DNA from: Chloroflexota bacterium
GTDB taxonomy: Bacteria; Chloroflexota; UBA6077; JACCZL01
Assembly (NCBI GenBank): GCA_020845495.1
Contig: JADLFM010000023.1
Coordinates: forward strand, 62,001-126,000
Direction: 5' to 3'
DNA length: 64,000 nucleotides
The position numbers and the translations under genes are program-made. Shown piece by piece: positions 30,226 through 48,047 of this stretch. Positions within the stretch are counted from its first letter, which is position 1, and each line of letters starts with the position of its first letter. Below the pieces are notes generated by a model. The model had not been told where the DNA came from, searched no databases, and saw nothing but the letters and a program-made list of their open reading frames with translations.

Positions 30226-31566
30226 ATGAGCGAACCGATCCGCGTCGTTCACTACCTCAATCAGTTCTTCGGCGGTTTTGGGGCCGAGGAGAAGGCCAAC
30301 ACCCCGGTCGAGATCCGCGATGGTCCCCTCGGGCCGGGGCGAGCGCTCCAGCAGGCGCTCGGGGAGCAGGCTACCATCGCCGCCACCCTGGTCGGCGGCG
30401 ACAACTACATGAGCGAGCACCAGGATGCGGCGCTCGCTACGCTCCGGGCGGCACTCGCGGACCTTTGCCCTGACGTGCTGGTCGCCGGGCCAGCGTTCGA
30501 CGCCGGGCGCTATGGCGTCGCCTGCGGCGAGGTCTGCAAACTCGCCGGCGAGCTGGGCATCCCGGCTGTCACGGCGATGTACCCAGAGAACCCGGGCGTG
30601 CCGCTTTTTCACCGTGACGTCCCGATCGTCCCGACCAGCGCGAACGCGGCGGGCATGGCAGCGGCAGTCGCGGCGCTCGCTCGACTGGTGCTGAAACTCG
30701 GGCAGGGCGAGCCGCTCGGACCGGCCGACGCGGACGGCTACCTCGGGCGGGGGATTCGCGTCGCCGGCCGGCGGACCGAGCCGGGCCACCGGCGGGCGGT
30801 CGCCATGCTTCATGCGAAGCTGGCCGGGCGCCCCTTCGCGACCGAGCTTCCGATCCACGCCACCGAGGCGGTCACGCCGGCGTCACCCATCGCCGATCTC
30901 TCGAAGATGACGCTCGCGCTGATCACGACCGGCGGGCTGGTCCCCAAAGGGAACCCCGACCGACTCAGCGCGGCGAACTCGCGCCAGTGGTACCGCTACT
31001 CCATCGAGGGGCTGGACCTGCTCTCGGCGACGGACTGGGACTGCGTCCACCGCGGGTTCTACACCGCCATTGTCAAGGAGAACCCCAACTACATTGTGCC
31101 GTTGCACGTCGTGCGGCACCTCGAACGTGCAGGCGCCATCGGCGGCGTCTACCCGTGGTTCTTCTCAACCAGCGGCGTCGGCACCCCGGACAGCTACTCC
31201 AAGCCGATGGGCCAGGAGATGGCTGCCGAACTGAAGCAGGCTGGCGTCGACGCGGCCTTACTCGTGGCCACTTGAGGGACCTGCAATCGTTGCGGTGCAA
31301 CGATAACGAAGGAAATCGAGCGAGCGGGCATTCCGGTCGGTATGATCTCGGCGCTTCAGAACGTCGCGCTGAACGGCGGCGCGCCTCGCGTGATTCATGG
31401 CGCGCGCATCGAACACGTCTGCGGCAACCCTGGGCTGACTCCGGAGATGGATCGGGAGTACGGCCGCCGCATCGTCGAAACTGCGCTCGCCGCTATCCAG
31501 GCCGCCGTGACCGGGCCGACCCTGTTCGAGCCAGCCGCCACCGCTTCCGCCGGAGCCACATCATGA
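30226..31566 (+). CDS. grdB: GrdB-like selenoprotein B, copy 1 (in-frame UGA = Sec)
   Basis: Component B selenoprotein subunit of the glycine/sarcosine/betaine reductase family. In known enzymes its selenocysteine takes the substrate's carboxymethyl-type group after C-N cleavage. The 446-residue protein starts with the family signature VVHYLNQFFGGFGAEEKA, then VGGDNYM, GPAFDAGRYGVACGEVC and ITTGGLVPKGNPD. A TGA codon at 31273-31275 (residue 350) stands in the context LLVAT-U-GTCNRCGATITKEIE, matching the family's U-G-T-C-x-R-C-G-A-T motif. The frame then continues 97 residues, ending just inside grdE1 (ATGA overlap). Reading TGA as stop would delete the redox centre. Five copies share this layout. 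Confidence 0.92.
31286..31304 (+). promoter_or_regulatory. SECIS hairpin of grdB1
   Basis: Ten bases after the TGA, AUCGUUGC-GGU-GCAACGAU forms a perfect 8-bp stem with a GGU loop. Spacing (about 20 nt from UGA to loop) and the G-U in the loop fit bacterial SECIS elements recognised by SelB. Confidence 0.88.
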
Positions 31567-32876
31567 GCTACCCGCCTGCTGGACAGCCCCGACTCACCCT
31601 GGGCACCTTCCCCGTGCACGACGTGGTGTTCGGTCGCGCGACCCGTTGGCACGATGGCGTGCTCGAGGTCGATCCGGACGAGCTCACGGCCGAGGTCCGT
31701 CGCGATCCCCGCATTCTCCGCGCCGAGCTACGACTGCTTCGGCCGGGCGAGCGGACGCGCCTGGTCAACCTGCGCGACCTGATCGAGCCGCGCATCAAGG
31801 TCGAAGGGCCGGGCGTCTGCTATCCAGGCATCTGTAGCCGCCCGAACCTGACGGTCGGAGAAGGGCGCACCCATCGGCTAGCTGGGCTGGCAATTGCCGA
31901 GTCCGCCGACGCTGTGATCTACGACGGCAACGATGGCTGGCTGGATCGTTGGCTCGACATGTACGGACCGGCCGCCGAAGCCGCGCCGACCGGCAGCCTG
32001 CTGAACCTGGCCCTGATCCTCGAGGTCGAGCCGAACATCGTCGCCCAGGAGCGCAGCGAGGCGGCCCACCGAGCCGCCCTCGACCTGTCGGACCGGCTAG
32101 CGCGTACGACGGTTGGCCTGACCCCGCCCGAGGAGCGCACTTACACTCTCGATCCGCCCGCGACGAAGCTGCCGCGAGTCGTCTACATCACCAGCCTGCG
32201 CTCGCCTCAGCACTACTCCGGCTCGCTCTACGCGACCTGGGTCGCCATTTACGGCCTGACCCGCCTGACGCCGCCCTGGCTGCTGCACCCCAACGAACTG
32301 CTCGACGGCGCGATCGGGGGGCCGGCCTCCTCCCATTCGGCCACCACCACCTGGATCATGACGAACAACCCGATCGTCGAAGATCTGTACCAGGGGCACG
32401 GCAGCGAGCACGACTTCGCCGGCGTCATCGCGATCCGCACCCGCTGGACGTCTCAGGACGAGAAGGACTTGACGGCCTACCAGGCTGCCAAGCTCGCCCG
32501 AACGATCGGCGCGGACAGCGCCATCGTCACCTACGACGCCGGCGGGAACGACTTCATGGAGGTCATGCAGACGGTCCAGGCGTGCGAGCGGTTGGGGATC
32601 AAGACCGTCCTGGTGACACCGGAGGCGCCGCCAGAGGCCGGTGGGTTGCCGTTGCTGATGGAGCTACCAGAAGCGGACGCCATCGTATCGACCGGGAGCG
32701 GCCGCCCTTCGGCCGAGCCGCTCGTGGTCCCGCCCCCCGAGCAGGTGCTGGGCGGCGATGACCTGTTCGCAACTCAGGACCGGCCCTGGGAGCGCATCCC
32801 CGCCACCTCCGCGATGACGTTCACCCGATGGCACGACCACTACGGGACGGGCACGATCTCCTGCTTTGAGTACTGA
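31563..32876 (+). CDS. grdE: GrdE-like component B subunit, copy 1
   Basis: Partner of GrdB1. Classical GrdE is a proprotein that self-cleaves at a Cys to form a carbonyl group binding the substrate amine. The 437-residue protein shows the family core: TLGTFPVHDVVFG, RIKVEGPGVCYPG, TVGEGRTHRLAGLAI, NELLDGAIGG, NNPIVEDLY, and DAGGNDFMEV. The segment after DGAI (residues about 247-264) contains no Cys; the conserved pair there is T263-W264. The ATG overlaps the grdB1 stop (ATGA). Longer open frame upstream lies inside grdB1 and is ignored. Confidence 0.88.
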   Translation: MSYPPAGQPRLTLGTFPVHDVVFGRATRWHDGVLEVDPDELTAEVRRDPRILRAELRLLRPGERTRLVNLRDLIEPRIKVEGPGVCYPGICSRPNLTVGEGRTHRLAGLAIAESADAVIYDGNDGWLDRWLDMYGPAAEAAPTGSLLNLALILEVEPNIVAQERSEAAHRAALDLSDRLARTTVGLTPPEERTYTLDPPATKLPRVVYITSLRSPQHYSGSLYATWVAIYGLTRLTPPWLLHPNELLDGAIGGPASSHSATTTWIMTNNPIVEDLYQGHGSEHDFAGVIAIRTRWTSQDEKDLTAYQAAKLARTIGADSAIVTYDAGGNDFMEVMQTVQACERLGIKTVLVTPEAPPEAGGLPLLMELPEADAIVSTGSGRPSAEPLVVPPPEQVLGGDDLFATQDRPWERIPATSAMTFTRWHDHYGTGTISCFEY

Positions 32877-32940
32877 CGGGCGGGGCTGAAGCTGGCGCGC
32901 GGCCAGCGTTCTACCAGCGCTTCAGAGGAGGGCCAGGCCG

Positions 32941-34284
32941 ATGAGCGATCCCATCAGCGTCGTCCACGTCGTGAACCAGTTCTTCGGCGGCATTGGCGGG
33001 GAGGAGAAGGCCAACGAGCCGGTGGTGGTCCGCGATGGCCCGGTCGGACCCGGCCGGGCTCTCCAACAGGCGCTCGGTACGCGCGGTGCCATCGTCGCCA
33101 CCCTGATTGGTGGTGACAACTACATGGCCGAGCAGCGTGATGCAGCGCTCGCGGCCGTGCGGGTGGCGCTCGAGCGGCTGAAACCGGATGCGGTCGTAGC
33201 CGGGCCAGCTTTCGACGCCGGGCGCTACGGTCTAGCCTGCGGTGAGGTCTGCAAACTCGCCGGCGAGCTCGGCATCCCGGCCGTCACAGCGATGCACCCG
33301 GAGAACCCGGGTGTGCTGTCGTTCGGGCACGAGGTAGTCATCGTGCCGACTGGTACCAGCCCGACCGAGATGGGGACGATCGTCCGGGCGCTTGCTCGCC
33401 TGGCGCTCGAGCTCGGCCGCGGTGGCGAGCTTGGGCCACCTGAGGTAGATGGCTACCTACCGCGTGGCATCCGCAAGCCGGGCCTGCGCGACAAGCCGGC
33501 GGCCGAACGGGCAATCGAGATGCTGATCGCTAAGACGACCGGCCGCCCGTTCCAGACTGAGCTACCCGTCGAATTGCCGGAGCGGGTCGCGCCGGCTCCG
33601 CCGCTGCCTGACCTGCATGGCGCCCGCCTCGTGCTGATCACCACCGGCGGCCTGGTCCCGCGCGGCAACCCGGACCGCCTCGTGCGCGGCAATGCCGAGG
33701 TCTGGCACCGCTACTCGATTGACGGCCTCGATTCGCTCGGCGCCGACGACTGGGAGTGCGTTCACCGTGGCTTTTACACCACCATCGTCGGCCAGAACCC
33801 GAACTACATCCTGCCGCTCGACCGGATGCGCGAATTGCAGCGTGAGGGAGCGTTCGCCGAACTGTATCCCTGGTTCTTCTCGACCAGCGGCGTCGGCACA
33901 GCCGTCGGCCACTCGAAGCGGATGGGCACTGAGATGGCTGCCGAGCTGAAGCAGGCTGGCGTCGACGCCGCCCTGCTGGTGGCCACCTGAGGGACGTGCA
34001 ATCGTTGCGGTGCAACGATCGCGAAGGAGATCGAACGAGCGGGCATCCCCGTTGGGATGATCTCGGCACTCTACAGTCTGGCCCTGACAACCGGCGCGCC
34101 ACGCGTCGTCCGTGGCGCGCGCATCGAGCACGTGTGTGGCAACCCTGCCCTCGGCCCCGACAAGGACCACGCGTACGGCCGGCGAATCGTCCGTACCGCG
34201 CTGGCCGCCGTGCAGACACCCGTCACCGGCCCGACGCTGTTCGACCCGGTGACAGCCGATGCGCCCGAAGCGGCGCGGGCGTGA
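32941..34284 (+). CDS. grdB: GrdB-like selenoprotein B, copy 2 (in-frame UGA = Sec)
   Basis: Second component B selenoprotein, 447 residues with Sec at residue 350 (TGA at 33988-33990). It starts VVHVVNQFFGGIGGEEKANE, with IGGDNYMAEQRDAA, FDAGRYGLACGEVC and ITTGGLVPRGNPDR. After Sec it reads GTCNRCGATIAKEIERAG. It is clearly a paralogue of copy 1: similar along its whole length but different in most third positions and many residues, so duplication is not recent. GAGGAGG lies upstream of the ATG. It follows grdE1 by 64 bp. Confidence 0.92.
34001..34019 (+). promoter_or_regulatory. SECIS hairpin of grdB2
   Basis: Same 19-base hairpin as in copy 1 (8-bp stem, GGU loop), starting 10 bases after the TGA. 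Confidence 0.88.
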
Positions 34285-34296
34285 GGGAGGACGACC

Positions 34297-35571
34297 ATGC
34301 GCCTGGAGCTCGGGACGTTCCCGGTCGACGACGTCTCCTTTGGTGCGGAGACGCGCTGGCGTCACGGCATACTGACCATCGATCCCGATGATCTGCTCGG
34401 TCGAATCCGCTCGGACGAGCGGATCACGCGCGTCGAGCTCGAGATCGTGCGGCCCGGAGAGTCCGTCCGCCTGACGACTGTCCGCGACGTGCTCGACCCT
34501 CGCATCAAGGTCGCCGGCCCTGGCATGGCCTACCCGGGCGTCTGCGGCCGGCCGGTGACGCCTGTCGGCCAGGGGAAGACCCACCGCCTCGCGGGTATGG
34601 GCGTGGTCGAAATCTCAGATACTGAGTACTACCACGGCAACGACGGCTGGGTGGACACCTGCATCGACATGGCCGGGCCTGGCGCCGAAGCGACCCCATT
34701 TGGGCAGATGCCCAACCTGGTCGTTCAGCTCTGGGCTGACCCGCGGCTCGGTATCGAGGATCAGAACGACGCCGTTCACACGGCAGCCCTCGTTGCCTCG
34801 GATCGGTTGGCGGCGACCACGCTCGACCTGGAGCCTCCACAGAGCGAGACCTTCGAGATCGAGCCGGTCGATCGCTCACTTCCTCGTGTCGTCTACATTC
34901 AGTGTCTCCGCTCCCCGGAGCACTACGCCGCCTCGCTCACCGCTCACTGGACCGGCATCTACGGTCTGACCCGCCTGACGCCGCCCTGGCTGCTCCACCC
35001 GAGTGAACTGCTGGACAGCGCGATTAGCGGCCGTCAGTCCTGGATCCTGGCCAATAACCCGGTTGTGCTGGGCCTGACCCGTCGTCATGGGGTCGACGTC
35101 GACTTCGCCGGGGTCATCGCGATCCGCACCCGCTGGAGCTCTCAGGCCGAGAAGGATCTGACCTCATTTCAGGCGGCCAAGATGGCGAAGCAGATAGGGG
35201 CGCAAGGCGCGATCGTCACCTATGACGCCGGCGGCAACGATTTCATGGAGGTGATTCGGACCGTCCAGGCGTGCGAACAGATTGGGATCAAGACGGTATT
35301 CGTCACGTTCGAGGAGGATCCGAGCACCGAGGGCCCGGCGCTGCTCGAACCGCTCCCGGAGGCTGACGCCATCGTCAGCACCGGTATCGGCTCGATCGCT
35401 CGCGATGGTGGACGGACCCCGTTGCCGCCGGTCGAGCGAGTCATTGGCGCTCAGGAGTTGGTCCTCCACACCGGCACCCGCCAGGGCCGGATTCCTGCGA
35501 ACGCGACCCTGGCAAGTCCTCGCTGGGGCGACCCCTACGGCCTTCGCCGCTGGTCCTGCTTCGCGTATTGA
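34297..35571 (+). CDS. grdE: GrdE-like component B subunit, copy 2
   Basis: A 424-residue partner of GrdB2. Family core: LELGTFPVDDVSFG, RIKVAGPGMAYPG, VGQGKTHRLAGMGVVE, SELLDSAISG, NNPVVLGL and DAGGNDFMEV. No Cys occurs between DSAI and NNP; S248-W249 is the conserved pair there. A strong site (GGGAGG) precedes the ATG, 12 bases after the grdB2 stop. Last gene of the plus-strand operon; two hairpins follow. Confidence 0.88.
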   Translation: MRLELGTFPVDDVSFGAETRWRHGILTIDPDDLLGRIRSDERITRVELEIVRPGESVRLTTVRDVLDPRIKVAGPGMAYPGVCGRPVTPVGQGKTHRLAGMGVVEISDTEYYHGNDGWVDTCIDMAGPGAEATPFGQMPNLVVQLWADPRLGIEDQNDAVHTAALVASDRLAATTLDLEPPQSETFEIEPVDRSLPRVVYIQCLRSPEHYAASLTAHWTGIYGLTRLTPPWLLHPSELLDSAISGRQSWILANNPVVLGLTRRHGVDVDFAGVIAIRTRWSSQAEKDLTSFQAAKMAKQIGAQGAIVTYDAGGNDFMEVIRTVQACEQIGIKTVFVTFEEDPSTEGPALLEPLPEADAIVSTGIGSIARDGGRTPLPPVERVIGAQELVLHTGTRQGRIPANATLASPRWGDPYGLRRWSCFAY

Positions 35572-35582
35572 CGGCCGTCACC

Positions 35583-35619
35583 CGGCGTGGGCGCTTCGCG
35601 CTTAGAGGCACCCACGCCG
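35583..35619 (+). terminator. hairpin at the convergent junction (1)
   Basis: Perfect 9-bp inverted repeat CGGCGTGGG / CCCACGCCG just after grdE2. Likely ends the plus-strand grd operon. Confidence 0.65.
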
Positions 35620-35633
35620 AGCGCTGAGCAGTC

Positions 35634-35678
35634 GTCTGCCCGATCCCCGCGCACGACTCGTGTAGGCATCGGGCAGAC
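35634..35678 (-). terminator. hairpin at the convergent junction (2)
   Basis: Perfect 11-bp inverted repeat GTCTGCCCGAT / ATCGGGCAGAC, 28 bases beyond the grdE3 stop. Likely ends the minus-strand operon, or acts in both directions with the adjacent hairpin. Confidence 0.65.
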
Positions 35679-35706
35679 GCCGCGTCCATGTCCCTGATTC
35701 GGCCGA

Positions 35707-37014
35707 TCAGTACGCGAAGTTGCTGAGGCGGTTGAAGCCGTAGTGGTCGTCGTAGCGCCAGGGCGGGTCGAGCGGTCCGCTGGTCGGCTGGCCGGTGTCG
35801 CTCTCCACGATGGCGCCAGCCTGCCGCCAGACGTGCCGGATTGGATTTCCGATCACTCGCTCGACCGGTGGGAACTGGCCGAGCTCCAGCAGCGAACTGG
35901 TGAAGTAGCCGGTGCTGACGATGGCGTCGGCCTCAGGAAGCGGCTGGAGGAGGGTTGCGGCTCCGCCCTCCGGATTGTCTTCGCTGGTGATCAAGACGGT
36001 CCGGATGCCCTCCCGCTCGCACTCACGGACCGTGCCGATCACCTCCAGGAACTCGTTGCCGCCAGCGTCCCAGGAGACGATCGCACCTTGCGCCCCCATC
36101 AGCTTCGCCATCTTCGCCGCCTGGGCTGCCATCAAGTCTTTCTCGCGCTGGGTGGTCCACTCGGTCTTGAAGGCCAGGACGCCGCGAAAGTCCAGGTCGA
36201 CGTTGTGACGGCGGTACAGATCGAGCACGATCGGGTTGTTGACGACGGTCCAGGATGTCGCGAACGCCGTGCGGTATGGGCCGCCGATCGCGCCGTCCAG
36301 CACCTCGTTCGGGTGCAGCATCCAGGGCGGCGTCAACTGGGTCAGACCGTAGATGCCGACGCAGAACGTCTTGGGCGAGCCGGACATCGCCTGGGGCGAG
36401 TGGATGCACTGGATGTACACCACCCCCGGCAGATCGGAGGTCACGGGCGGCAACTCGTACACGTCGAGCCGGGGCGGCTCCAGGTCTGCGACAGCCTGCC
36501 CCAGGTGGTCGACGACCGTCAACGTGGCGGCGTGGACCGCGCCGTTCTGCTCGTCGACGTCGAGAGCAGGATCGGGCTCCACGATCAGGCAGACGTTCTG
36601 GAGCTTCGCCTGCGGGAGCAGGTCCGCCCACGGGCCGCGCATGTCGACGAACAGCTCGACGTAATCACCCCCAGCCGTATGCCAGGGCACGTTCGAGACT
36701 TCGACGACGCCGACGCCCTCCAGGCGGTGGGTGCGGCCTCGGCCGACCGTGCGGACGTCGCGCCCGACTGTGCCGGGATAGCACACACCCGGCCCTTCGA
36801 CCTTGATGCGTGGCTCGACGACATCCCGCACCGGCCAGATCCTGACCGATTCGCCAGGGTGGGCGAGTTCCAGGTCGGCCGATGCGATCCGGTGGTCGGC
36901 GCGGACCTCGCGCAGCACGGCGTCGCGGTCGATCTCCAGGCGCCCGTCCTGCCAGCGAGTGGCCTGACCGAACGTCACCTCCTTGACGGGGAAGGTGCCC
37001 ATCTCGAGGCGCAT
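35707..37014 (-). CDS. grdE: GrdE-like component B subunit, copy 3
   Basis: A 435-residue partner of GrdB3. Core motifs: RLEMGTFPVKEVTFG, RIKVEGPGVCYPGTVG, VGRGRTHRLEGVGVVEV, NEVLDGAIGG, NNPIVLDLYRRH and DAGGNEFLEVIG. The segment between DGAI and NNP lacks Cys and has S254-W255. The ATG is chosen 26 bases after the grdB3 stop; the longer open frame runs back into grdB3. It converges with grdE2. Confidence 0.88.
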   Translation of the reverse strand: MRLEMGTFPVKEVTFGQATRWQDGRLEIDRDAVLREVRADHRIASADLELAHPGESVRIWPVRDVVEPRIKVEGPGVCYPGTVGRDVRTVGRGRTHRLEGVGVVEVSNVPWHTAGGDYVELFVDMRGPWADLLPQAKLQNVCLIVEPDPALDVDEQNGAVHAATLTVVDHLGQAVADLEPPRLDVYELPPVTSDLPGVVYIQCIHSPQAMSGSPKTFCVGIYGLTQLTPPWMLHPNEVLDGAIGGPYRTAFATSWTVVNNPIVLDLYRRHNVDLDFRGVLAFKTEWTTQREKDLMAAQAAKMAKLMGAQGAIVSWDAGGNEFLEVIGTVRECEREGIRTVLITSEDNPEGGAATLLQPLPEADAIVSTGYFTSSLLELGQFPPVERVIGNPIRHVWRQAGAIVESDTGQPTSGPLDPPWRYDDHYGFNRLSNFAY

Positions 37015-37040
37015 CTCGTACCTCCTTACGTCACCCGCGC

Positions 37041-38390
37041 TCAGGCCACCGGCGCGGCGGGGATGCTGGGCATCTGCCACGGGTCGAACAGGGTTGGTGC
37101 GTCGACTGGCGTCATCAGCGTCTGGAGCGCCGCCCGCACGATCTGAAGCCCGTAGGCCCGGTCCTTCTCCGGCCCCAACGATGGGTCGCCGACGACGTGC
37201 TCGATGCGTGATCCCTTCACGACCCGGTTGGCTCCGGTGGTCAACGCCAGGTCGTAGATCGCGCTCAGCACCGCCGTGGGGATGCCGACTCGCTCGATCT
37301 CCTTCGCGATCGTTGCACCGCAACGATTACAGGTGCCTCAGGTGGCCACCAGCAGCGCACCGCCAACGTCCGCGTCGTGGAGCTCCTGCGCGATGTCGGC
37401 CCCGAGCCGCCGCGCCCAGGCCACCGGCGTGCTGACCCCGGGCAGGGCATAGATGCGGGGGTACACGTTCCCGATCGTCCCTTCGGTCTGTAGCATGCGC
37501 GCGTACCGCAGGGGCAGGATGTAGTTCGGATCAGTGCTGGCAATCGAGTTGTAGTAGCCGGCGTGATACGCCTCAAACTGATCGTTCGTCAGCTCGGCCA
37601 GATCCCCGACCTCAAATCGCAAGTAGCGGCGGGCGTTGCTCGACGTCATGTGATCTGGATTGCCCTTACGGATCAGCCCACCCGTCGTTATCAGGGCGAT
37701 GGCAGCCGACGACGGGTTCCGCAGGGGCGGCGCGGGCATGACCCGATCCACCGGCTGGTAGGGGATCTCGCTGACGAATGGACGGCCGTTCAGCTTGGCC
37801 ACCAGCATGTCGACGGCGCGCACCGCGCCGATCTGGTCGCGCTGGCCCTGCTTGCGGACACCCCGCGGCAGATAGCCCTCTTCGGCGGCCGGCCCGAGCG
37901 CCTGACCGGCTACCAGCTTCCTGGCGAGGCGGACCATCGTCCGCAAGCCGTCTTCCATCGCGGCGGGAGTCGGGCCCGTGCTGACGACGTACACCTGCTG
38001 GCTGTAGATCGCAGCGGCCGGATTCTCGGCGTGCATGCCGGTCACAGACGGTACGCCGGCCGCCTCGGCGATCTGGGCCACTTCGCCGCAGGCAAGCCCG
38101 TAGCGCCCAGCCAGGAACGCCGGGCCGGCGATCACCACATCCGGCCGCACCGTCTCGATTGCTGTGCGGACGGCGGCGACGGCCTCATCGTGGTGGTCCT
38201 GAAAGTAGTTGTCCCCGCAGATAAGAGTGGCCTGGACCTGGCCGCCGTCGAGGAGACGGTCGAGCAGCCGCCCCGGCCCAAGGGGGCCATCACGAAGCTC
38301 GGGCGGCTGGCCGGCCTGCTCCTCACCTCCGATACCGCCGAAGAACTGGTTGATGTAGTGCAGTACCCTGAGCCCCTGCTGGTCCGGCAT
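37041..38390 (-). CDS. grdB: GrdB-like selenoprotein B, copy 3 (in-frame UGA = Sec)
   Basis: Component B selenoprotein, 449 residues with Sec at residue 351 (TGA at 37340-37338). It starts VLHYINQFFGGIGGEEQAGQ, with ICGDNYFQDHHDEA, GPAFLAGRYGLACGEVA and ITTGGLIRKGNPDH. After Sec it reads GTCNRCGATIAKEIERVG. It is more divergent than copies 1 and 2 (for example HMTSSNARRYLRFEVGD in the middle). The ATG before PDQQGLRV is chosen; an upstream ATG adds 19 unlike residues. A terminator separates it from grdE4 upstream, so it may have its own promoter. Confidence 0.92.
37309..37327 (-). promoter_or_regulatory. SECIS hairpin of grdB3
   Basis: Identical 19-base hairpin on the minus strand (8-bp stem, GGU loop), 10 bases after the TGA. 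Confidence 0.88.
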
Positions 38391-38546: not shown

Positions 38547-38551
38547 AGATG

Positions 38552-39862
38552 TCAGTAGCTCGCGCTGCTCTGACGGCCGAAGCCGTAGTAATCCTGAAGG
38601 TGGAAGGCGCCGTAGCGGCCGGCGATCGGCTGGAGCTCGCCGCCCCACGACGGGTCCGGGCTCAGCGCGCCGAGCACTCGCTCGACCGGGTGGAACGGCC
38701 CCGGAACAGCCCCAGTCCCGGTGCTGACCGCCGACACGATGGCCGGGTCGTTGATCAGCAGCGGGGTGGCATTGCCGTTCTCGTCGTCCTCCTCCTCGGT
38801 CACCAGCACGGTCTTGATGCCCTCAGCCTCGCAGGCCTTGACGGCCGCCACCGTATCGACGAAGCGGCGTCCGCGAAGGTTGGTCGTCACGATGGCGCCC
38901 GTCGCCCCCAACAGCCGGGCGAGCTGGGCGTCGCGCTCGGCGATCAGCTCCATCTCAGCCTGCCCGCCCCAGTTCGAGCGATGGACGATGACTCCCAGGA
39001 AGTTCAGGTCGCGCCCGTGCCGGCGAGCCAGTTCGAGGACGATCGGGTCGTTGAGCATCGGCCAGGTCAGCAACTGCACCGAGCCCTGGCTGACCGCACC
39101 ATCCAGCATCTCGGTCGGATGGAGCGCCCACGGTGCCGAGAGCCGCGTCACCCCATAGACCGCGGTGCCCAACCGAGAGTCCGGCCCGAAGCGGAACTCC
39201 GGGGACATCAAGAGCGGGATGTAGACCATCCCGGGCAATGCGGGATCGCGGGTCGAGAGGTCGAAGGCCTCGAGCTCTGGCGGCTCCAGAGCGGCCACCG
39301 TGGCGGCCAGGTAGTCGGCGATGCGCAGCGCCGCGCCGTGCGTGGCTAAGTGCCGGTCCTGGGCATCGAGTCCAGCCAGTGGGCGGAGCGTGACGACCAG
39401 GTCAATCAGGTTGGCGTAGGGCCGGGCCGCGCTCGGGCCGGCCATGTCGATGAAGTCCTGACGACGCTCGGTCCGATCCCAGGCATGCGGCGCACCGCCG
39501 CGAATCAGGTCTCCCACGCCCGGCCGCTCGTCCAGGACGTCGACCGATTCTACGACGCCGAAGCCGCCGAGGCGATGCGTGCGACCCCGCCCAACGGTCA
39601 CGATCGATCGGCCGCAGGTGCCCGGGTAGCAGACTCCCGGTCCTTCGACCTTGATACGCGGGTCAAGCACGTCGACCACGTTGATGATCCGGACCGAGTC
39701 GCCCGGACGGGCCAGTTCGACTTCGACGTTCGTGAGGTTAGGCTCCGAGCGGGCAAGGTCGAGGACCGCCTCTCGGTCGATCTCCAATACGCCGTCAGCC
39801 CAGCGAGTGCGCGGTCCGAACCTGGCCTCGCGGACCGGGAAGGTGCCCAGTTCAAGCCGCAC
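38552..39862 (-). CDS. grdE: GrdE-like component B subunit, copy 4
   Basis: A 436-residue partner of GrdB4. Core motifs: LELGTFPVREARFG, RIKVEGPGVCYPGTCG, VGRGRTHRLGGFGVVE, TEMLDGAVSQG, LNDPIVLELARRHG and TTNLRGRRFVDTV. The last motif departs from the DAGGN(D/E)F form of copies 1-3, linking this copy with copy 5 (TTVDVRGNRFIEA). No Cys lies between DGAV and NDP; T266-W267 is there. The start overlaps the grdB4 end by 11 bases. Confidence 0.88.
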   Translation of the reverse strand: MRLELGTFPVREARFGPRTRWADGVLEIDREAVLDLARSEPNLTNVEVELARPGDSVRIINVVDVLDPRIKVEGPGVCYPGTCGRSIVTVGRGRTHRLGGFGVVESVDVLDERPGVGDLIRGGAPHAWDRTERRQDFIDMAGPSAARPYANLIDLVVTLRPLAGLDAQDRHLATHGAALRIADYLAATVAALEPPELEAFDLSTRDPALPGMVYIPLLMSPEFRFGPDSRLGTAVYGVTRLSAPWALHPTEMLDGAVSQGSVQLLTWPMLNDPIVLELARRHGRDLNFLGVIVHRSNWGGQAEMELIAERDAQLARLLGATGAIVTTNLRGRRFVDTVAAVKACEAEGIKTVLVTEEEDDENGNATPLLINDPAIVSAVSTGTGAVPGPFHPVERVLGALSPDPSWGGELQPIAGRYGAFHLQDYYGFGRQSSASY

Positions 39863-41201
39863 CGACGGCCTCCTTCTGCTCGCTCTGGTCTGGATCGAAG
39901 CGCGTCGGCTCCGTGACGGCCGTCTCGAGCGCTCGCAATGCCGTGCTGACGATCCGTCGCCGCACCACCAGATCCGCCGCGTCCGACAGGCCAGGGTCGC
40001 CGCAGACGTGCTCGACCCGCACGCCGGTTACAACCCGGTTGGCGCCCGCACCCAGCGCGACCATCGGCAGCGCGCTCACCTGCACGACCGGCAACCCCTG
40101 CCGCTCGAGTTCCTTGCTGATCGTTGCGCCGCAACGATTGCAGGAGCCTCAGGTAGCGACCAGCAGCACCGCGCCCACGTCCGCGTCGTGCAGTTCCTTC
40201 GCGATCTCGGCGCCCATCCGCTTGGCCTCGGCCACGGCCGTCTGATTCCCGACTGTCGCGTAGTAGATCGGGTGGAGCGAGCCGATCCGGCCGGCCGCTT
40301 CCAGTTCGCGCAAGGCGTCCAACGGGACCACGTAGTTCGGATTGCGGGTGTTGACCGCCTCAGTGCTGTACCCGCCGTGGACCGATTCCCACTCGCCGAC
40401 GATGAGCGCGGACCGGTCGGTCAGTGGGTAGCGGAAGAAGCGCTCCGCCCGGGCGGATACGAGCCGGTCCGGATTGCCCTTCGGCACGAGCCCGCCGCTC
40501 GTGACGACCCCGAGCTTCACCCGCGACAGGTCTGGAACGGGCGGCGTCGGCGTAACCGCGTCGTACCGCGCGACCGGGATCTCGGTCTGAAACGGCCGCC
40601 CGGCGATCCGATCCAGGGCCATGTCGACCGCCCGAGCGGCACCGCTCTTCTCGCGCAGGACCGGCCGCCGGAAGCCGCGCCAGAGGTAGCCTTCCTCGTC
40701 GGCGCTGCCCAGTTCCCGGCCAGATCCCAGCTTCAGCGCCAGCCGCGCCAGCGCTGCCATCGCCTTGCCCATCTCCGCGACGTTCGTGCTGGTGGGCAGG
40801 CAGATCACGTCATGCCGGTTCGTGGTGAACCCGGGGTTGTCCGGGTACATCGCCGTCACGGCCTTGATCCCGAGTGCCTGGGCCTCGATGCAGGCACGCG
40901 CGCAGGCCAGCCCGTAGCGGCCTGAGTCGAAGGCCGGCCCGGCGACGACGACGTCCGGCGTCAGCCGCCCCAGCGCTTCGCGCATCGCGACGGCTGCGCG
41001 CTCGCCCTCTTCAGCGACGAAGTTGTCGCCGCCCACGATCGTGGCCACGATCGTGCCGTTCGTTCCAAGCGTCTGCTGGAGCGCTCGGCCGGCCCCGACC
41101 GGACCGTCATGGACCTCCACGGGACGATTGGCGGCATCCTCGCCGCCAATCCCCGCGAAGAATTGGTTCAGATAGTGGACTACTCGCACGGGCCCCGCCA
41201 T
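39852..41201 (-). CDS. grdB: GrdB-like selenoprotein B, copy 4 (in-frame UGA = Sec)
   Basis: Component B selenoprotein, 449 residues with Sec at residue 351 (TGA at 40151-40149). It starts VVHYLNQFFAGIGGEDAANR, with VGGDNFVAEEGERAAV, GPAFDSGRYGLACARAC and VTSGGLVPKGNPDR. The post-Sec sequence is GSCNRCGATISKELERQG, with Ser in place of Thr at the usual GTC. The ATG after GGAGG is chosen. It shares with copy 5 the VHGG(Y/F)ST(E/V)..NTRNPNY segment where copies 1-2 have VHRGFYT, so copies 4 and 5 form a subgroup. Confidence 0.92.
40120..40138 (-). promoter_or_regulatory. SECIS hairpin of grdB4 (GGC loop)
   Basis: Same 8-bp stem at the same spacing, but the loop is GGC instead of GGU, the only base difference in the 19 among the five copies. 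Confidence 0.82.
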
Positions 41202-41309
41202 CGGCGTTCCCTCCTCGGCGTGCAGCATAGTGCCTGCCCGGTCAGCGAGGCATTCGCCCCGGTCGTCACCTCCGACGTGTCTCCCGGGCAGTAGCGCTGG
41301 CCGGTGCTG

Positions 41310-41336
41310 GTGGGCGGCGCCGCACGTGCCGCCCAC
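41310..41336 (-). terminator. hairpin after the redoxin gene
   Basis: Perfect 9-bp stem GTGGGCGGC / GCCGCCCAC, 49 bases past the redoxin stop and before grdB4. It suggests that grdC-grdA-redoxin form a transcript separate from grdB4-grdE4. Confidence 0.65.
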
Positions 41337-41384
41337 GGATCGGGCTCCTCAGGACGAGCCAGACTGGCTCGTGTGGCGGGAGCT

Positions 41385-41873
41385 TCACCCAGGTTTGAAG
41401 TCTGGCATCCCATCGTCCGACGGCGCGATGACCGCCGGCTGCTCGCCGAGCGCCGCCGCGACCTGATCGGCAAGATCGTTCAGATCCGGCTTCGCGTGGC
41501 CATAGTGAGCGGAGCGAATCGTCCCGTCACGACCGACGAAGAAAATAGTCGGAGTTGCCAGTGGGTCGTAGGCTTGCGAAACAGGGAAGCCATCCCCATC
41601 GATCAGCATTGGGAAGGTGATGCCGGTTCGGCCAGCGAACCACTCGGCGGCGCGCGCCGGGTTCTGGCAGATGCCCCAGATCTGCCAGCCACCGGCCGGA
41701 TAGGCCTTGTGGAGCCGCTCCAGGTACGGGAACGTCACCGCGCAGGTGGCACAGTCAGCCTTCATGAAGGCGAGCACGACCGGCCCCCTGGTCAGCGCAT
41801 CGGCGAGACGGTGTTCCGTCCCGGCCGAGTCGGGGAGGCTGAAGTCAGGTGCGCGGTCGCCGGCGTCGAGCAT
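41385..41873 (-). CDS. redoxin/peroxiredoxin-like protein with CATC motif
   Basis: A 162-residue thioredoxin-fold protein of the AhpC-TSA/redoxin type: start APDFSLPDSAGTEHRLADAL, then FMKADCATCAVTFPYLERLH with the redox pair C41-x-x-C44, and the cis-Pro region LATPTIFFVGRDG. Its ATG overlaps the grdA stop by one base (TGATG), so the two are translated together. Classical glycine reductase takes electrons from thioredoxin through GrdA; this coupling makes the redoxin the best candidate for electron donor to GrdA here. That role is inferred, and a bacterioferritin-comigratory-type peroxidase function is the alternative. Confidence 0.85.
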   Translation of the reverse strand: MLDAGDRAPDFSLPDSAGTEHRLADALTRGPVVLAFMKADCATCAVTFPYLERLHKAYPAGGWQIWGICQNPARAAEWFAGRTGITFPMLIDGDGFPVSQAYDPLATPTIFFVGRDGTIRSAHYGHAKPDLNDLADQVAAALGEQPAVIAPSDDGMPDFKPG

Positions 41874-42346
41874 CAGCCTGCTCCGTTCTGCTCGCGGATC
41901 CGGCGCGTCGCCTCGTTGACGGCTTCCTCGTCGAGCGAAAACGTCGCGAAGCTCAGTTCGCGCTCGAAGACGTCGTCAGGGATCTGGGCTTTGATGTCTG
42001 GCTCGAGGACGTGATAGACGGGCAGCTTGAGCGCCACGCCAGCCAGTGCCCCAGCCCACGAGGGGTCGCCATCGGTGACGGTCAGGGCGTACAGCTCGCT
42101 ACTGTCCGCGGTCGGCATGCCCAGCAGCACGACCAGGTCGTCGGTGCCCGCTGCATCGACGGCCCGCTTGATCTCTTCTTGACCTTCCAGGTCAACAGCT
42201 CCCGCTGACGTTCAAACGAAGCAGTGGGTCTGCTCCAGCACGACCGTCGCGCCGGCCGCCTTCGCGCAGGCGCTGATCGACGGTCCCTGAATCCCGTCAC
42301 GCTCGCCAAGCGCGAGCACACGCTTGCCGGCAAGCTGCATCGTCAT
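41873..42346 (-). CDS. grdA: GrdA selenoprotein A (in-frame UGA = Sec)
   Basis: Component A of glycine reductase, the small selenoprotein that accepts the Se-carboxymethyl group from component B and passes it to component C. The 157-residue length equals that of known GrdA. The start LAGKRVLALGERDGIQGP is the family's K-x-x-x-x-G-x-R-D-G-I-x-G-P. Sec is at residue 45 (TGA at 42214-42212) in HCFV-U-TSAGAVDLEGQ, giving the classical C-x-x-U redox motif with C42. Downstream DPSWAGALAGVALKLPVYHV.. is also typical. The ATG at 42346 has GGAGG eight bases upstream. Ignoring the TGA recoding leaves only an 85-residue C-terminal fragment. Confidence 0.93.
42179..42195 (-). promoter_or_regulatory. candidate SECIS hairpin of grdA
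   Basis: Sixteen bases after the grdA TGA, UUGACC-UGGAA-GGUCAA forms a perfect 6-bp stem with a 5-base loop having G at loop position 2. Position and loop fit a bacterial SECIS, but the sequence differs from the grdB hairpin. Confidence 0.65.
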
Positions 42347-42453
42347 CGCGATCACCTCCAAGATCTGATTGCGGATGTGGGTGGAGTGTGGATAGCGGAG
42401 TGTGGACTGCGGTACGTCGGTTGCCTGACCCTCACAGCACCTCTGGGTACGAC

Positions 42454-43938
42454 TCAGGCGTTACGCTCGAGCATGAACGAGAGGCCGTCAGACATCTGGG
42501 TCATCCGGCCGAGGAAGAGGCTCCCCTTAGCCAGGAACAGGGTGTTCCGCAGTGTACCATCGCGCATGCCGTCGACGGCGTGACCGAGGAATGGGATGGC
42601 CGAGGCGACGTGCCCCTGCGTCGGCGAGAAGCCCGGCATGCCGTGCGCTTCGACGAAGGCGGGGAGGTCGGCGGCTTTCATCTCGCCGCGCAGCACGGCC
42701 AGCCCGGCGATCATCTTGTAGTTGGTGAGCGGGACGTTGCCGCTGCCGGCCGGCTCGGTGACCTCCGGGTCGTGGAGCTCGGTAGCGTAGCGGTCCACCT
42801 CGTCGAACCGGAGCCCAAGCTGAGCGAGCGGTTCGGCCACGAGCTTTTCGAGAATCTCACGCTGCGACGATTGGGCGCCGACGGTGTGGCGGCCGAGGGC
42901 ATCTAGCCGGATGACCGGGCTGACGCCGTCGTCCGGGCCAAGGTGGATGGCGAAGCCGGCCAGCACGTCTTCGAGGATCGGCATGTCCTTGCCGAGATGC
43001 GCGAGCGACTTCATCCCGAGCTTGGCGAGCGAGCAGCCGCCGATCACCAGGAGATCGGAGAAGACGCCGGCCGCGCCAAGGCCAGCCCCGATGGCCAGCG
43101 CATGGTTTGGGCCACAGCAGAACGCCTTGACGTCCGAGCCGGTCGCGTTGCGCAAGTCGCAGCGCTCGGCCACGGCTTTCGCCAGATTGCCGCCCCCACG
43201 CTGGTAACGGTCGCCGACCGCCTCCTCACCCGAGCCGATGACGTACTCGATTGAGGTCGGATCGATGCCGGCTTGGGCGAGTAGGGTGCGGGTCGCCATC
43301 GTGGCTGAGGCGAGACAGACCAGGTTTTCGAGCAGCACCGAGGCTCCGAGCGCCTCGTCGACCTCATGGGCACGATTGGCACAGCCGACCAGCCGGCCGT
43401 CCGGCAGGGCGAGCGAGATGGCCTTGCCCTCCGCGCACTGCGTCTCGATCGCCTCGCGCGTCCGTCCACCCGTGAGGTGCTCCAGGTCTGCCGCCGAGAT
43501 GAGGGGGTGGCCGCTGAGTCGCTCGCGTGCTTCTTGAGCGAACTCCTCCTCCAGCCAGATCAGGTCGAACCGGTCGAGGATCTTCAGCAGCCCGTACAGT
43601 TCCTCCTCCGGCATCAGCTCGCCGTACGGCATCCAGCGGGCTGGCGCAGCCGGGCTCGCGTGCCCCCACCACGGCCGCTCGATCTGGCGCAAGTCATCCG
43701 GGTGGAGCAGTCCGAGGAAGGTCTGAGTCGGGGGGTAGGCGAGCGCCGCATCGTACGAGCGTAGGCGGCCGCGCATCCGCTCCCAGAGCTCCGGCTGTCG
43801 GGCGATCTCGCGCGTCGGCTTGGAGCCGTGTCGAACCAGGCCTGGCGCGTGCGCGAGAAAGTAGCGGACCCCTTTGATGACGACTCGCCCGACCGGTTTC
43901 CCGAGCCGCGCGCCGAGCTTCTCCTCCGGACGTACCAT
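42454..43938 (-). CDS. grdC: GrdC, glycine reductase component C beta subunit
   Basis: Component C converts the acetyl/thioester intermediate on GrdA to an acyl phosphate in the classical pathway. The 494-residue protein starts RVVIKGVRYFLAHAPGLVRHGSKP, the GrdC signature. A thiolase/KAS III-like core has EYVIGSGEEAVGDRYQRGGG and NATGSDVKAFCCGPNHALAIG, with Cys residues in the expected nucleophile region. It ends with GNVPLTNYKMIAGLAVLRGEM and GFSPTQGHVASAIPFLGHA. It lies 108 bp upstream of grdA on the same strand. The companion subunit GrdD is not seen in the window. Confidence 0.92.
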   Translation of the reverse strand: MVRPEEKLGARLGKPVGRVVIKGVRYFLAHAPGLVRHGSKPTREIARQPELWERMRGRLRSYDAALAYPPTQTFLGLLHPDDLRQIERPWWGHASPAAPARWMPYGELMPEEELYGLLKILDRFDLIWLEEEFAQEARERLSGHPLISAADLEHLTGGRTREAIETQCAEGKAISLALPDGRLVGCANRAHEVDEALGASVLLENLVCLASATMATRTLLAQAGIDPTSIEYVIGSGEEAVGDRYQRGGGNLAKAVAERCDLRNATGSDVKAFCCGPNHALAIGAGLGAAGVFSDLLVIGGCSLAKLGMKSLAHLGKDMPILEDVLAGFAIHLGPDDGVSPVIRLDALGRHTVGAQSSQREILEKLVAEPLAQLGLRFDEVDRYATELHDPEVTEPAGSGNVPLTNYKMIAGLAVLRGEMKAADLPAFVEAHGMPGFSPTQGHVASAIPFLGHAVDGMRDGTLRNTLFLAKGSLFLGRMTQMSDGLSFMLERNA

Positions 43939-43979
43939 CGGGCGCCCCTTTCTCGATTGCGTGTAGTAACAAGCTAGTC

Positions 43980-44006
43980 GTGCGGGCAGTGAGAGAGCGC
44001 CCGCAC
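43980..44006 (-). terminator. hairpin after grdE5
   Basis: 8-bp stem GTGCGGGC / GCCCGCAC about 25 bases beyond the grdE5 stop, before grdC. Confidence 0.6.
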
Positions 44007-44030
44007 CGCGTACCCTGCTATCTCACCGTG

Positions 44031-45299
44031 CTAATAGTCCAGGCAGCCGACCTGTCCCCATCCGTAATAGTCGACCCAGTAGCGGGCGATATGGCCGCCG
44101 CCCTCACCTGGTCGCTCAGCATACCATTCTGCTGCCGCCGGTTCGAGCGCACCCAGGACGCGCTCGACGGCCGGGAACGGGCCAGGCACGTCCGAGTCAC
44201 CGCAGCTCACGGCGCTCACTACCTCAGGCGTCGAGAAGATCAGCGGCGGCGCTTGCCCGTCCTCGTTCGGCTCCTCGACCGTGCAGAGGGTCGTCTTGAT
44301 GCCCCGCTGCTCGCAGGCTTGCACCCCGAGGATCGCCTCGATGAAGCGGTTGCCACGGACGTCCACCGTCGTCACGGCGGCCTGTGCACCGAGCATCGAC
44401 GCCAGGTCGGCTACTCGCAGGGCGGCAAGCTGCTTCTCGCGTTGGGCCGTCCAGTTGGTCCGCGCGATGATGCAGCCGAGGAAGTTGAGGTCGATGCCGT
44501 GGCGGCGCGCGAGCTCCAGCACGATGGGATTGTTCGCCTGGATCCAGCTCGTCTTGCGAGTGATGGCGCCGTCAAGGATCTCGGTTGGGTGGAGCAGCCA
44601 GGGCGCCGACAGGCGAGTGATCCCGTAGACGGCCGTTCCAATGCCCGAGCGCGGCCCCACCCGATGCTCGGCCGAGCGCAGATTGGCAACGAAGACCACG
44701 CCTGGTAACGAACGGTCGCGGACCTCCAGGTCGAATACCTCGACGGACGACGGCTCCTGGCCGATGGTCGTCTCGGCGAGGCGGTCGGACACCCGCAGTA
44801 CGGCCGCGCGCTTCGCCTCGTCCCAGTCCTCGTCGCTCAGGTCAGCGGCCAGGCCGAAGGTCAGGACGATGTTGTGGAGCCGGCCGTACGGCTGGACCGC
44901 TCCCGGCCCGGACATCTCGACGAAGTAGTGCGAGCCGCGCGACTCGCCGCGCGAGGGACCGAGGTCGTCGGACGGGTCCACGCACTCGACCAGCCCCAGC
45001 CCCCCAAGCCGGTGCGTCCGCCCAGCGCCGACGGTCGCCACATCCCGGCCGCACACGCCAGGGTAGGTGCGGCCAGGACCGTCCGCCTTGATGCGCGGCT
45101 CCAGCACGTCGTGGACGTTGATGATCCGGGCCGAGTCACCTGGACAGGTCACGTCGACGGTGACGGCGCGGATACGGTGGTCCTGCCGCACCAGCCCCCT
45201 GAGCTCGTCGGGGTCGATAGTCAGAACGTCGTTCGACCAGACCGTGCGTCGACCAAGTTCGACCCGCCGGACGTCGAAGGTTGCGAGCTCAAGACGCAC
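44031..45299 (-). CDS. grdE: GrdE-like component B subunit, copy 5
   Basis: A 422-residue partner of GrdB5. Core motifs: LELATFDVRRVELG, RIKADGPGRTYPGVCG, VGAGRTHRLGGLGLVE, TEILDGAIT, NNPIVLELARRHG and TTVDVRGNRFIEAI. No Cys between DGAI and NNP; S251-W252 is there. The GTG start is chosen because GGAGG lies six bases upstream and it begins at the conserved RLELATF; it overlaps the grdB5 end by 11 bases. Confidence 0.87.
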   Translation of the reverse strand: MRLELATFDVRRVELGRRTVWSNDVLTIDPDELRGLVRQDHRIRAVTVDVTCPGDSARIINVHDVLEPRIKADGPGRTYPGVCGRDVATVGAGRTHRLGGLGLVECVDPSDDLGPSRGESRGSHYFVEMSGPGAVQPYGRLHNIVLTFGLAADLSDEDWDEAKRAAVLRVSDRLAETTIGQEPSSVEVFDLEVRDRSLPGVVFVANLRSAEHRVGPRSGIGTAVYGITRLSAPWLLHPTEILDGAITRKTSWIQANNPIVLELARRHGIDLNFLGCIIARTNWTAQREKQLAALRVADLASMLGAQAAVTTVDVRGNRFIEAILGVQACEQRGIKTTLCTVEEPNEDGQAPPLIFSTPEVVSAVSCGDSDVPGPFPAVERVLGALEPAAAEWYAERPGEGGGHIARYWVDYYGWGQVGCLDY

Positions 45300-46632
45300 C
45301 GGCCACCTCCTGCCCCACGTGCGGCTCGAACAATGTTGGCCCATCGATTGGCGTCTGGAGCGCACGGAGTGCCGTCATCACGATCGCCTCGCCAAGCTCA
45401 CGGTCCTCCTCGGGCGACAGCGACGGGTCGCCGCAGACGTGCTCGATCCGGACGCCTCGGACGACCCGTAGCGCCCCAACGTTGAGGGCGAGGGCCGGCA
45501 GCGCGCTCATCATGGCGACCGGAATACCGGCCCGCTCGATCTCCTTGCTGATCGTTGCACCGCAACGATTGCAGGTCCCTCAAGTGGCGACCAGCAGCAC
45601 CGCGTCCACGCCGGCCGCTCGGAAGTCCTGGCCGATCTCGTTGGCCATCCGTTTCGCGGTGGCGACGGCGGTGCCATTGCCGACGGTCGAGTAAAAATAT
45701 GGGTAGACGCTGCCAATGACGCCGCGCTGCTCCAGGTCGTGGACCGTGCCGATGGGTAGCGCGTAGTTTGGGTTCCGGGTGTTCAGGATCACGGTGCTGA
45801 AGCCGCCGTGCACGGACTCCCAGTCGGCCACGGTCAGCGCGTCCACGTTCTCGATCGAGTAGCGGAAGCAGGCGCGAGCGCCGCCCGATACCTGATGGTC
45901 GGGATTGCCGCGCGGCACCAGCCCGCCGCTCGTGACGAGGCCGATCTTCGCGGTGCGCAGGTCGGGCAGGGGCGGGAGCGGCGTGACGTCCTCGTACGAT
46001 ACCACCGGGATCTCGGTCTGCCAGGGTCGGCCCGCCAGCCGGTCGACGAGTTGATCCACCGCGCGACGGGCGGCCGGCTGCTCGTGGACGACGGCTCGTC
46101 GATAGCCACGAGGCAGGTAGCCGGCCTGGGCGGCCGGCCCGGGATCCTCACCGTGCGCCAGTGTGAGCGCCAGTCTGGCCATCGCCTGGAGCGTCCGCGC
46201 CATCTCGCCGGCGGTGCGGCCGGTCGGGATGATGTAGAGCGCCCGCCGGCCGATAGCGACGCCCGGGTTCTCCGGATACATGCCGCTCACGACCGGGATA
46301 CCACGCTTCACAAGTGCCAGGCCGAGCGCCGCGCAGGCCAACCCGTACCGCCCGGCGTCGAACGCGGGGCCGGCGACCACGACGTCCGGCCGAAGCTCAT
46401 CGATGGCTCGAAGTACGTCGCCGATGGCATCCGCTTGCCGCTCGTTGACGTAGTTATCGCCGGCGACAACCGTGCCGACGATCTCCCCCGCATCTCCGAG
46501 GACGTTCTGGAGGAGCCGGCCGGGGCCAATTGGCCCGGGAATGACCCGCACGCCGACGTTCGCCTGTTCTTCGCCGCCGATACCAGCGAAGAACTGATTG
46601 AGATAGTGCACCGCTCGAATGGGGCTGGCCAT
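45289..46632 (-). CDS. grdB: GrdB-like selenoprotein B, copy 5 (in-frame UGA = Sec)
   Basis: Component B selenoprotein, 447 residues with Sec at residue 351 (TGA at 45582-45580). It starts AVHYLNQFFAGIGGEEQANV, with VAGDNYVNERQADAIG, GPAFDAGRYGLACAALG and VTSGGLVPRGNPDH. After Sec it reads GTCNRCGATISKEIERAG. It is the first gene of the minus-strand set grdB5-grdE5-grdC-grdA-redoxin, so it may be the component B originally associated with A and C. It is closest to copy 4 by shared segments. Confidence 0.92.
45551..45569 (-). promoter_or_regulatory. SECIS hairpin of grdB5
   Basis: Identical 19-base hairpin on the minus strand (8-bp stem, GGU loop), 10 bases after the TGA. Confidence 0.88.
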
Positions 46633-48045: not shown

Positions 48046-48047
48046 CG

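Follow-up and report, generated by a model that had tools for sequence, protein, structure and literature searches.

Described glycine reductases and the island

The closest described counterpart of the locus reported here is the clostridial glycine reductase GrdEABCD, a thioredoxin-driven relay in which selenocysteine (Sec), encoded by UGA, is found in GrdA (CxxU) and in GrdB (UxxC(N/T)RC). GrdD is the second subunit of clostridial component C, and its thiol makes acetyl phosphate. The betaine (GrdH/GrdI) and sarcosine (GrdF/GrdG) reductases likewise have a Sec-containing B module that feeds GrdA. In the published scheme, the substrate is bound by B and E, attack by Sec leads to a carboxymethyl selenoether, an acyl thioester is formed on component C and thioredoxin brings about the reduction (PMC10298544, PMC13188914; papers are cited here by PMC number). 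Several B complexes are described as feeding one reductase, with eight grdB in Cloacibacillus. In that organism, an anaerobe, FarB/FarE is an extra Sec B module without pyruvoyl cysteines that is predicted to feed the common A and C; FarE and GrdI are said to be without the two conserved cysteines required for pyruvoyl formation, FarB is reported to have lost the CxxC after Sec, and the legend of the gene map mentions grdD (PMC10838667). Marine selenoproteome surveys reported one GrdA each with one and five GrdB (PMC1088965, PMC2398784), another paper mentions glycine reductases of Dehalococcoidia in connection with serpentinite springs (PMC9751293), and a 2026 paper on Desulfobacterota analysed five glycine reductase subunits, grdC and grdD being unnamed in the text (PMC12827605). 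In a 2026 selenoproteome review, glycine reductase is linked with anaerobic energy metabolism, and selenoproteins are said to be rarely kept by aerobic bacteria (PMC13188914).

We analysed a window of 64,000 nucleotides (positions 62,001 to 126,000 of contig JADLFM010000023.1, assembly GCA_020845495.1), in which all coordinates below are given. Its segment 30226-46632 (~16 kb) carries 13 genes in two convergent blocks, ordered B1-E1-B2-E2 on the plus strand and, read from the right, B5-E5-C-A-redoxin-B4-E4-B3-E3 on the minus strand (Table 1). These are five GrdB and five GrdE homologues (GrdE being PF09338), one GrdA, one GrdC and one small redoxin. All were found by profile matches, the recoded GrdB and GrdA proteins matching their Pfam families, and the gene content bears out an earlier note on this DNA, which had described five B/E modules served by a single A and a single C. 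The island resembles the clostridial system in its Sec motifs, its GrdE homology and its GrdC family. However, it differs in the absence of GrdD, in E subunits without NCxxAC, in GrdB scores under the glycine cut-off, in its five B modules and in a TlpA-like redoxin coupled to grdA. We tentatively propose, with somewhat less than even confidence, that it encodes a reductive relay without GrdD and probably without pyruvoyl, in which five substrate modules would accept different small acids and the acyl group would be passed to CoA. Multiple B modules on one A/C are already published; a Grd branch without GrdD and pyruvoyl was not found described in the available excerpts of the open-licence papers searched.

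Putative substrate modules and the end of the proposed relay

All five GrdB proteins pass TIGR01918, the model of the glycine/betaine/sarcosine superfamily selenoprotein B (427.9-456.9 bits, cut-off 65.45), and all five fail the models of the individual types: glycine GrdB (TIGR01917, 379.3-420.3 bits, cut-off 602.2), sarcosine GrdF (416-448 bits, cut-off 800) and betaine GrdH (NF040795, 388-398 bits, cut-off 775). The sarcosine GrdG model gave 173-223 bits against a cut-off of 780. Controls from GrdD-bearing Bacillota pass their models, with 786.5 bits for a glycine-type copy (locus L125; L and G numbers designate loci and genomes of the comparison) and 818.6 bits for a betaine-type copy (L124). 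The Sec-site motif is ATUGTCNRCG in four of the window GrdB and ATUGSCNRCG in the fifth, and the published glycine-GrdB motif (PMC9751293) occurred in 0/30 copies of this NRC type and in 7/76 other copies, those of L125-L127 included. Motif, stem and Sec-site counts leave out loci L081-L103 and L105-L123 and the duplicates L134, L135, L148, L150 and L152; GrdB shorter than 380 amino acids were excluded from the tree and from the motif and Sec counts, and GrdE shorter than 330 from the motif count.

In a quick GrdB tree of 105 rows, made without bootstrap, the five window copies fall in a 28-row group (SH-aLRT 99) that also holds copies from Chloroflexota, Entotheonella, Rokubacteria and Myxococcota, with one NRC-type copy (L003) outside it. 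The GrdB of five genomes with GrdD lie apart from this group. Identity within the window is 47-68% among the GrdB and 42-57% among the GrdE proteins. The closest tree partners of B1, B4 and B5 lie in G293, a 7.7 Mb genome from a Chloroflexota draw and the nearest relative found, and not within the window; the modules therefore diverged before these genomes split, and judged by their sequences the five probably bind different ligands. A PDB sequence search with B1 gave no match. As a separate observation, 42 of the 105 tree rows have kept Sec and lost one or both of the following CxxC cysteines (e.g. STUGTSTRSG).

The second departure concerns GrdE. The NCxxAC motif is missing in all five window copies, and NCVSAC is present in the GrdE of L125-L127; counted literally, NCxx(A/P)C was found in 0/28 E partners of NRC-type GrdB versus 14/76 other E copies. 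We infer that NCxxAC is the pyruvoyl processing site, and the window E subunits would then probably be without a pyruvoyl group, much as GrdI is described as unprocessed. The "glycine" label of the earlier note is not supported: no window GrdB passes the glycine, sarcosine or betaine model, and the cysteine motif is missing from every GrdE. The FarE model was not reached either (101.9-128 bits for the five E, cut-off 675). No PDB fold matched the predicted GrdE structure (pLDDT 78) at E <= 0.001, and a PDB sequence search with E4 returned three weak matches, the best (E 0.0066) to the Scribble PDZ protein, which we judged to be chance.

The third departure is at the end of the relay. GrdD (NF040747) had no match among the 20 window ORFs compared with NCBIfam, two of the ten tables in one scan holding the best 25 families. 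It was over cut-off in 0/37 chosen GrdC-bearing genomes, 30 from GrdC loci (30 of the 80 GrdC-found loci were followed to genomes) and 7 further Chloroflexota; completeness of the 37 is not given, and one (G397) has only a partial GrdC under cut-off. By comparison, 199 drawn Bacillota contained GrdC in 61, GrdD in 60 and both in 57, the Bacillota with GrdC but no GrdD match being G021 (Ammoniphilus, counted in both sets), G041, G139 and G223. A repeat search refound GrdD in 5/5 positive genomes. Sub-threshold GrdD matches were seen in 15/30 relatives and in 7/14 controls, including E. coli and B. subtilis. We considered whether GrdD was simply missed by its own model and rejected this, the model passing its cut-off in 59 of the 199 Bacillota and the weak matches of the relatives resembling those of the controls. 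In our judgement, genome incompleteness does not explain the difference between 0/37 and 57/61. The "nearly complete relay" of the earlier note overlooks the absence of GrdD. GrdD-less relays extend outside this clade, as shown by Desulforhabdus (L042, G023), Syntrophus (L051, G026) and Acetothermia (L049, G025), which have GrdE with NCVSAC, GrdB with STUGTCTRC and no GrdD over cut-off.

GrdC matches KASIII/thiolase proteins by profile and by predicted fold, and its invariant Cys274 aligns with the KASIII active-site cysteine, which we take to be catalytic. CoA-thioester chemistry is suggested by this analogy, and the use of CoA by GrdC is a prediction. GrdC relatives made up 7937 of the 7999 scored candidates; the superfamily is therefore large and partly named in databases. 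Public records label homologues "betaine reductase" or "component C subunit beta", so the claim that the system would be largely invisible to annotation was overstated. A scan of viral contigs with the GrdC alignment gave 78 pattern matches and no relative.

The redoxin is the probable reductant of the relay. The earlier note had mentioned a coupled redoxin, and it is present and overlaps the grdA stop; we correct its type to TlpA/ResA-like with a CATC motif (best NCBIfam match ResA, 56.4 of 170 bits, under cut-off). Homologues named as TlpA family lie on contigs that match those of close GrdC relatives in size (18,424; 3,188,621; 11,584), so the linkage is likely old.

Proposed route and competing readings

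In the route we propose, each B/E module would bind its own X-CH2-COO- substrate, or a substituted form of it, and the Sec of GrdB would attack the carbon and expel X. Because the E subunits have no Cys motif taken to form pyruvoyl, the substrates should be ones that need no Schiff base, such as a quaternary amine, ether, thioether or halide (compare betaine reductase and fluoroacetate reductase). Next, the Sec of GrdA would take over the carboxymethyl group; cleavage of the Se-C bond would then yield an acyl thioester on GrdC, the thiolase-like subunit, together with a selenenylsulfide on GrdA, and the redoxin would return GrdA to its reduced state. Since GrdD, the maker of acetyl phosphate, is missing, we predict that GrdC hands the acyl group to CoA, through which it would reach the central metabolism of a cell that respires. 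The middle of this relay is as published; both altered ends, that is the missing Schiff base and the transfer to CoA, are our inferences.

The respiring cell comes from the relatives. A COX1 (haem-copper oxidase) match at E <= 1e-60 was present in 30 of the 37 GrdC-bearing genomes, and G293 has four matches to the family, which also includes nitric-oxide reductases. The suggestion that the host is probably aerobic is therefore supported, although by indirect evidence only. More broadly, and with clear reserve, we consider that O2-respiring Chloroflexota and many soil and marine lineages may run a widespread undescribed branch in which swappable Sec modules cut C-N, C-O, C-S or C-halogen bonds of X-CH2-COO- without pyruvoyl and, with no GrdD involved, the acyl group goes straight to CoA and supports aerobic carbon metabolism, not fermentation. 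If this is true, soil and marine bacteria would possess a route for small carboxymethyl compounds that depends on selenium, and a census based on the glycine motif (PMC9751293) would likely miss these copies. Sec reductase modules in genomes with haem-copper oxidase matches, and without the GrdD step, contrast with the anaerobic picture of the review. The system also makes a relay ending without GrdD testable.

Several points weigh against this proposal. GrdC similarity or phylum decided which 37 genomes were chosen, and 7 of them have no COX1 match. The sel genes of the window organism, and the lack of GrdD outside the island, are taken from relatives, many of which are metagenome-assembled genomes (MAGs) whose completeness is not given. 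NCVSAC is retained in the GrdD-less genomes of Desulforhabdus, Syntrophus and Acetothermia, so that loss of GrdD and loss of the motif do not always go together. The GrdC model has a low TM-score to condensing enzymes (0.32-0.38 of the query among the matches listed), and the GrdC of GrdD-bearing genomes fits the same model over its full length; being alike with and without GrdD, GrdC alone is no proof of CoA transfer.

Among the other readings, an ordinary Stickland-type glycine (or sarcosine/betaine) reductase that makes acetyl phosphate and has extra B modules would agree with GrdA and GrdC passing their family models, with all five GrdB passing TIGR01918 and with the described multi-B systems that share A and C (PMC10838667). 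We nevertheless hold it to be unlikely: the GrdB scores are far below the glycine, betaine and sarcosine cut-offs while the L125 and L124 controls pass, the E subunits have no NCxxAC, GrdD is under cut-off in every chosen relative and the glycine-GrdB motif is absent from the NRC-type copies. We also give little credence to an expanded betaine reductase, with all five modules serving quaternary-ammonium osmolytes (glycine betaine and close analogues). The absence of pyruvoyl cysteines from GrdI (PMC10838667) and the many GrdC relatives publicly named betaine reductase would suit it, but in the tree the window GrdB do not cluster with the betaine-type copy of L124, they fail NF040795, and their low mutual identity suggests different ligands. 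Moreover, the nearby binding protein is of the SBP_bac_1 family, which is not known as the usual type for betaine transporters.

A role of the modules in detoxifying or scavenging haloacetates or other electrophilic acetates, in the manner of fluoroacetate reductase, is quite improbable. FarE and FarB are functional precedents for modules without pyruvoyl cysteines (PMC10838667); however, the E subunits score only 102-128 bits with the FarE model, and the post-Sec CxxC reported missing in FarB is kept in all five GrdB. Still more improbable is a role of the Sec proteins as thiol-dependent peroxidases or redox sensors and not as catabolic reductases, which is hinted at by the title of Groebe 2007, reporting GrdB peroxidase activity, and by the coupled TlpA-like redoxin: A, B and E are also found at 61 of the 80 GrdC-found loci, implying that the full relay is in use.

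Predicted selenocysteine codons, host and gene neighbourhood

In the five GrdB and in GrdA, UGA is predicted to be read as selenocysteine. A single internal stop interrupts each GrdB frame; it is a TGA and falls at codon 350 (B1, B2) or 351 (B3, B5); in B4 it is codon 360, or 351 from the better-supported start, picked for its upstream GAGGAGG. The GrdA frame has one internal TGA, at codon 43 counted from 42340 and within the motif CFVU. All six frames run on for 96-112 codons past the internal TGA to their own final TGA stop, and the start codons of E1, E4, E5 and the redoxin lie on or ahead of the distal stop of the preceding gene. Because of these four overlapping joints, ribosomes are expected at those distal stops. 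ORFs under the standard code end at the UGA (349-395 aa for GrdB), as had been anticipated.

The Rfam family SECIS_4 (RF01990) matches at all five grdB, starting at the first base after the UGA, with 45.0 (B2), 44.7 (B3), 33.8 (B1), 30.8 (B5) and 25.1 bits (B4); the gathering score of 38 is passed by two of the five (B2, B3), and the weakest match, B4, has E 0.077. At the grdA UGA no Rfam family matches, and a hairpin is visible only in a single-sequence fold. An in-frame UGA combined with a SECIS match, as in bacterial selenoproteins, was found for the five grdB. For the codon set of the hairpin, AAT CGT TGC GGT GCA ACG, the codon usage of 20 window genes gives a joint probability of 2.8e-5; the exact set occurs in four of the five grdB, B4 being off by one codon. 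Over 28 distinct NRC-type copies, 222/224 cells of the stem pair. The stem covaries, the synonymous third base of the Asn codon tracking the first base of the Ile/Val codon (31 copies: AAT+AT 23, AAC+GT 6, AAT+GT 1, a wobble pair, and AAC+TT 1, unpaired). In a wider set of 62 distinct copies, 452/496 stem cells pair, the shortfall arising because the outermost pair fails to form in TRC-type copies.

Coding past the UGA is also supported by comparison with the G293 orthologues, made for B1, B4, B5 and GrdA, in which synonymous differences exceed non-synonymous ones: 34/11 codons in B1, 25/9 in B4, 31/13 in B5 and 26/14 in GrdA. The Sec position is UGA in 106/106 GrdB copies of at least 380 aa and in 83/84 GrdA of more than 120 aa, the exception being a second, Cys-type GrdA in L035. 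The in-frame TGA at the known Sec position in all six genes, and continued coding after it, as given in the earlier note, are thereby confirmed. That the UGAs are real stops in decayed genes is next to negligible, even though ordinary ORF finding stops at them and UGA also serves as the final stop in all six genes, in view of the invariant UGA at the GrdB Sec site, the SECIS covariation, the excess of synonymous change past the UGA and the starts of E1 and the redoxin on the distal stop. The Cys-type protein of L035 (2533-2967, minus strand) has Cys in place of Sec (CSLCC) and adjoins the Sec GrdA; according to the Sargasso Sea paper, no Cys homologue of GrdA was known at that time.

The suspected Chloroflexota affiliation agrees with the closest named GrdC relatives, 85% and 82% identical to the window protein and labelled as Chloroflexota MAGs, and with the synteny of G293. 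Of 400 genomes drawn from the phylum of G010 (L014, Chloroflexi bacterium), 8 carried GrdC, in 7 of them over cut-off. G293 keeps the gene order B5-E5-C-A-redoxin-B4-E4, with GrdC 88.8% and the redoxin 75% identical to the window. In this genome selA adjoins selB, tRNA-Sec scores 65 bits and selD has an in-frame TGA of its own. Over cut-off in the 37 GrdC-bearing genomes were selB in 36, tRNA-Sec in 35, selA in 32 and selD in 34, compared with 2, 5, 1 and 2, respectively, of 14 control genomes. As five controls pass the tRNA-Sec cut-off, weak tRNA-Sec matches mean little. Two GrdC-free genomes of G293's own family differ, G325 having all four sel markers and G445 none over cut-off; the Sec machinery of G325 without GrdC means that this machinery alone is no mark of the system. 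Among 25 genomes counted, up to nine GrdB matches were found in one; G397 and G009 (L136-L146) have nine and seven, respectively, spread over several contigs.

Table 1. Genes of the island, followed by other features of the window
Feature	Position	Strand	Evidence and remarks
grdB-like selenoprotein B1 (predicted)	30226..31566	+	Pfam GRDB 416 bits; TIGR01918 456.9 bits; UGA 31273-31275; SECIS_4 31276-31313
grdE-like E1	31563..32876	+	PF09338; ATG overlaps B1 stop (ATGA)
grdB-like selenoprotein B2 (predicted)	32941..34284	+	TIGR01918 429.9 bits; UGA 33988-33990; SECIS_4 33991-34028
grdE-like E2	34297..35571	+	PF09338
grdE-like E3	35707..37014	-	PF09338
grdB-like selenoprotein B3 (predicted)	37041..38390	-	TIGR01918 427.9 bits; UGA 37338-37340; SECIS_4 37300-37337
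grdE-like E4	38552..39862	-	PF09338; GTG start overlaps B4 end
grdB-like selenoprotein B4 (predicted)	39852..41201	-	TIGR01918 447.5 bits; UGA 40149-40151; SECIS_4 40111-40148
TlpA/ResA-like thiol-disulfide oxidoreductase (CATC)	41385..41873	-	AhpC-TSA/Redoxin; one-base overlap with grdA stop
grdA selenoprotein A (predicted)	41873..42346	-	PF04723 (GRDA) 165 bits; NF040748 172.9 bits (cut-off 130); UGA 42212-42214 in CFVU
grdC (component C beta), thiolase/KASIII-like	42454..43938	-	NF040746 607.8 bits (cut-off 450); Cys274 aligned to KASIII active-site Cys
grdE-like E5	44031..45299	-	PF09338; GTG start overlaps B5 end
grdB-like selenoprotein B5 (predicted)	45289..46632	-	TIGR01918 450.8 bits; UGA 45580-45582; SECIS_4 45542-45579
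ABC transporter (two permeases, family-1 solute-binding protein, SBP_bac_1)	25180..28492	-	
Cytochrome P450-like gene	28757..29929	+	PF00067 78 bits, C-terminal part only; lies upstream of B1-E1-B2-E2, in the same orientation
Molybdenum hydroxylase	47128-50876	+	
ParB-like partition protein	12066-13238	+	
Card1-like nuclease domain	62763-63923	+	PF09002 31.7 bits (cut-off 26.4); possible CRISPR-linked defence gene

The P450 and the molybdenum hydroxylase described beside the island are both present, and a CoA-transferase and an enoyl-CoA hydratase also lie near it. The association of the P450 with the island is unproven, as is that of the ABC transporter, a possible importer for the system. 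None of these neighbours (P450, transporter, CoA-transferase, hydratase, hydroxylase) fixes the substrate, and shared-neighbour clustering placed no window gene in the 40 clusters listed and fixed no substrate. Near relatives' modules are accompanied by a thioredoxin-reductase-like protein, thioredoxin, family-5 ABC binding proteins with permeases, SelB and regulators. Apart from these, no GrdD was over cut-off in the Bacillales genomes G021, G022 and G024, and in seven Bacillales loci (L037, L038, L044, L045, L053, L056 and L063) GrdC and a thioredoxin-reductase-like gene are accompanied by an E whose loop is betaine-like (SGSFMPxSSK). SelB is also present in three of the seven, and the GrdB of L037 reaches 731.6 of 775 bits, just under the betaine cut-off.

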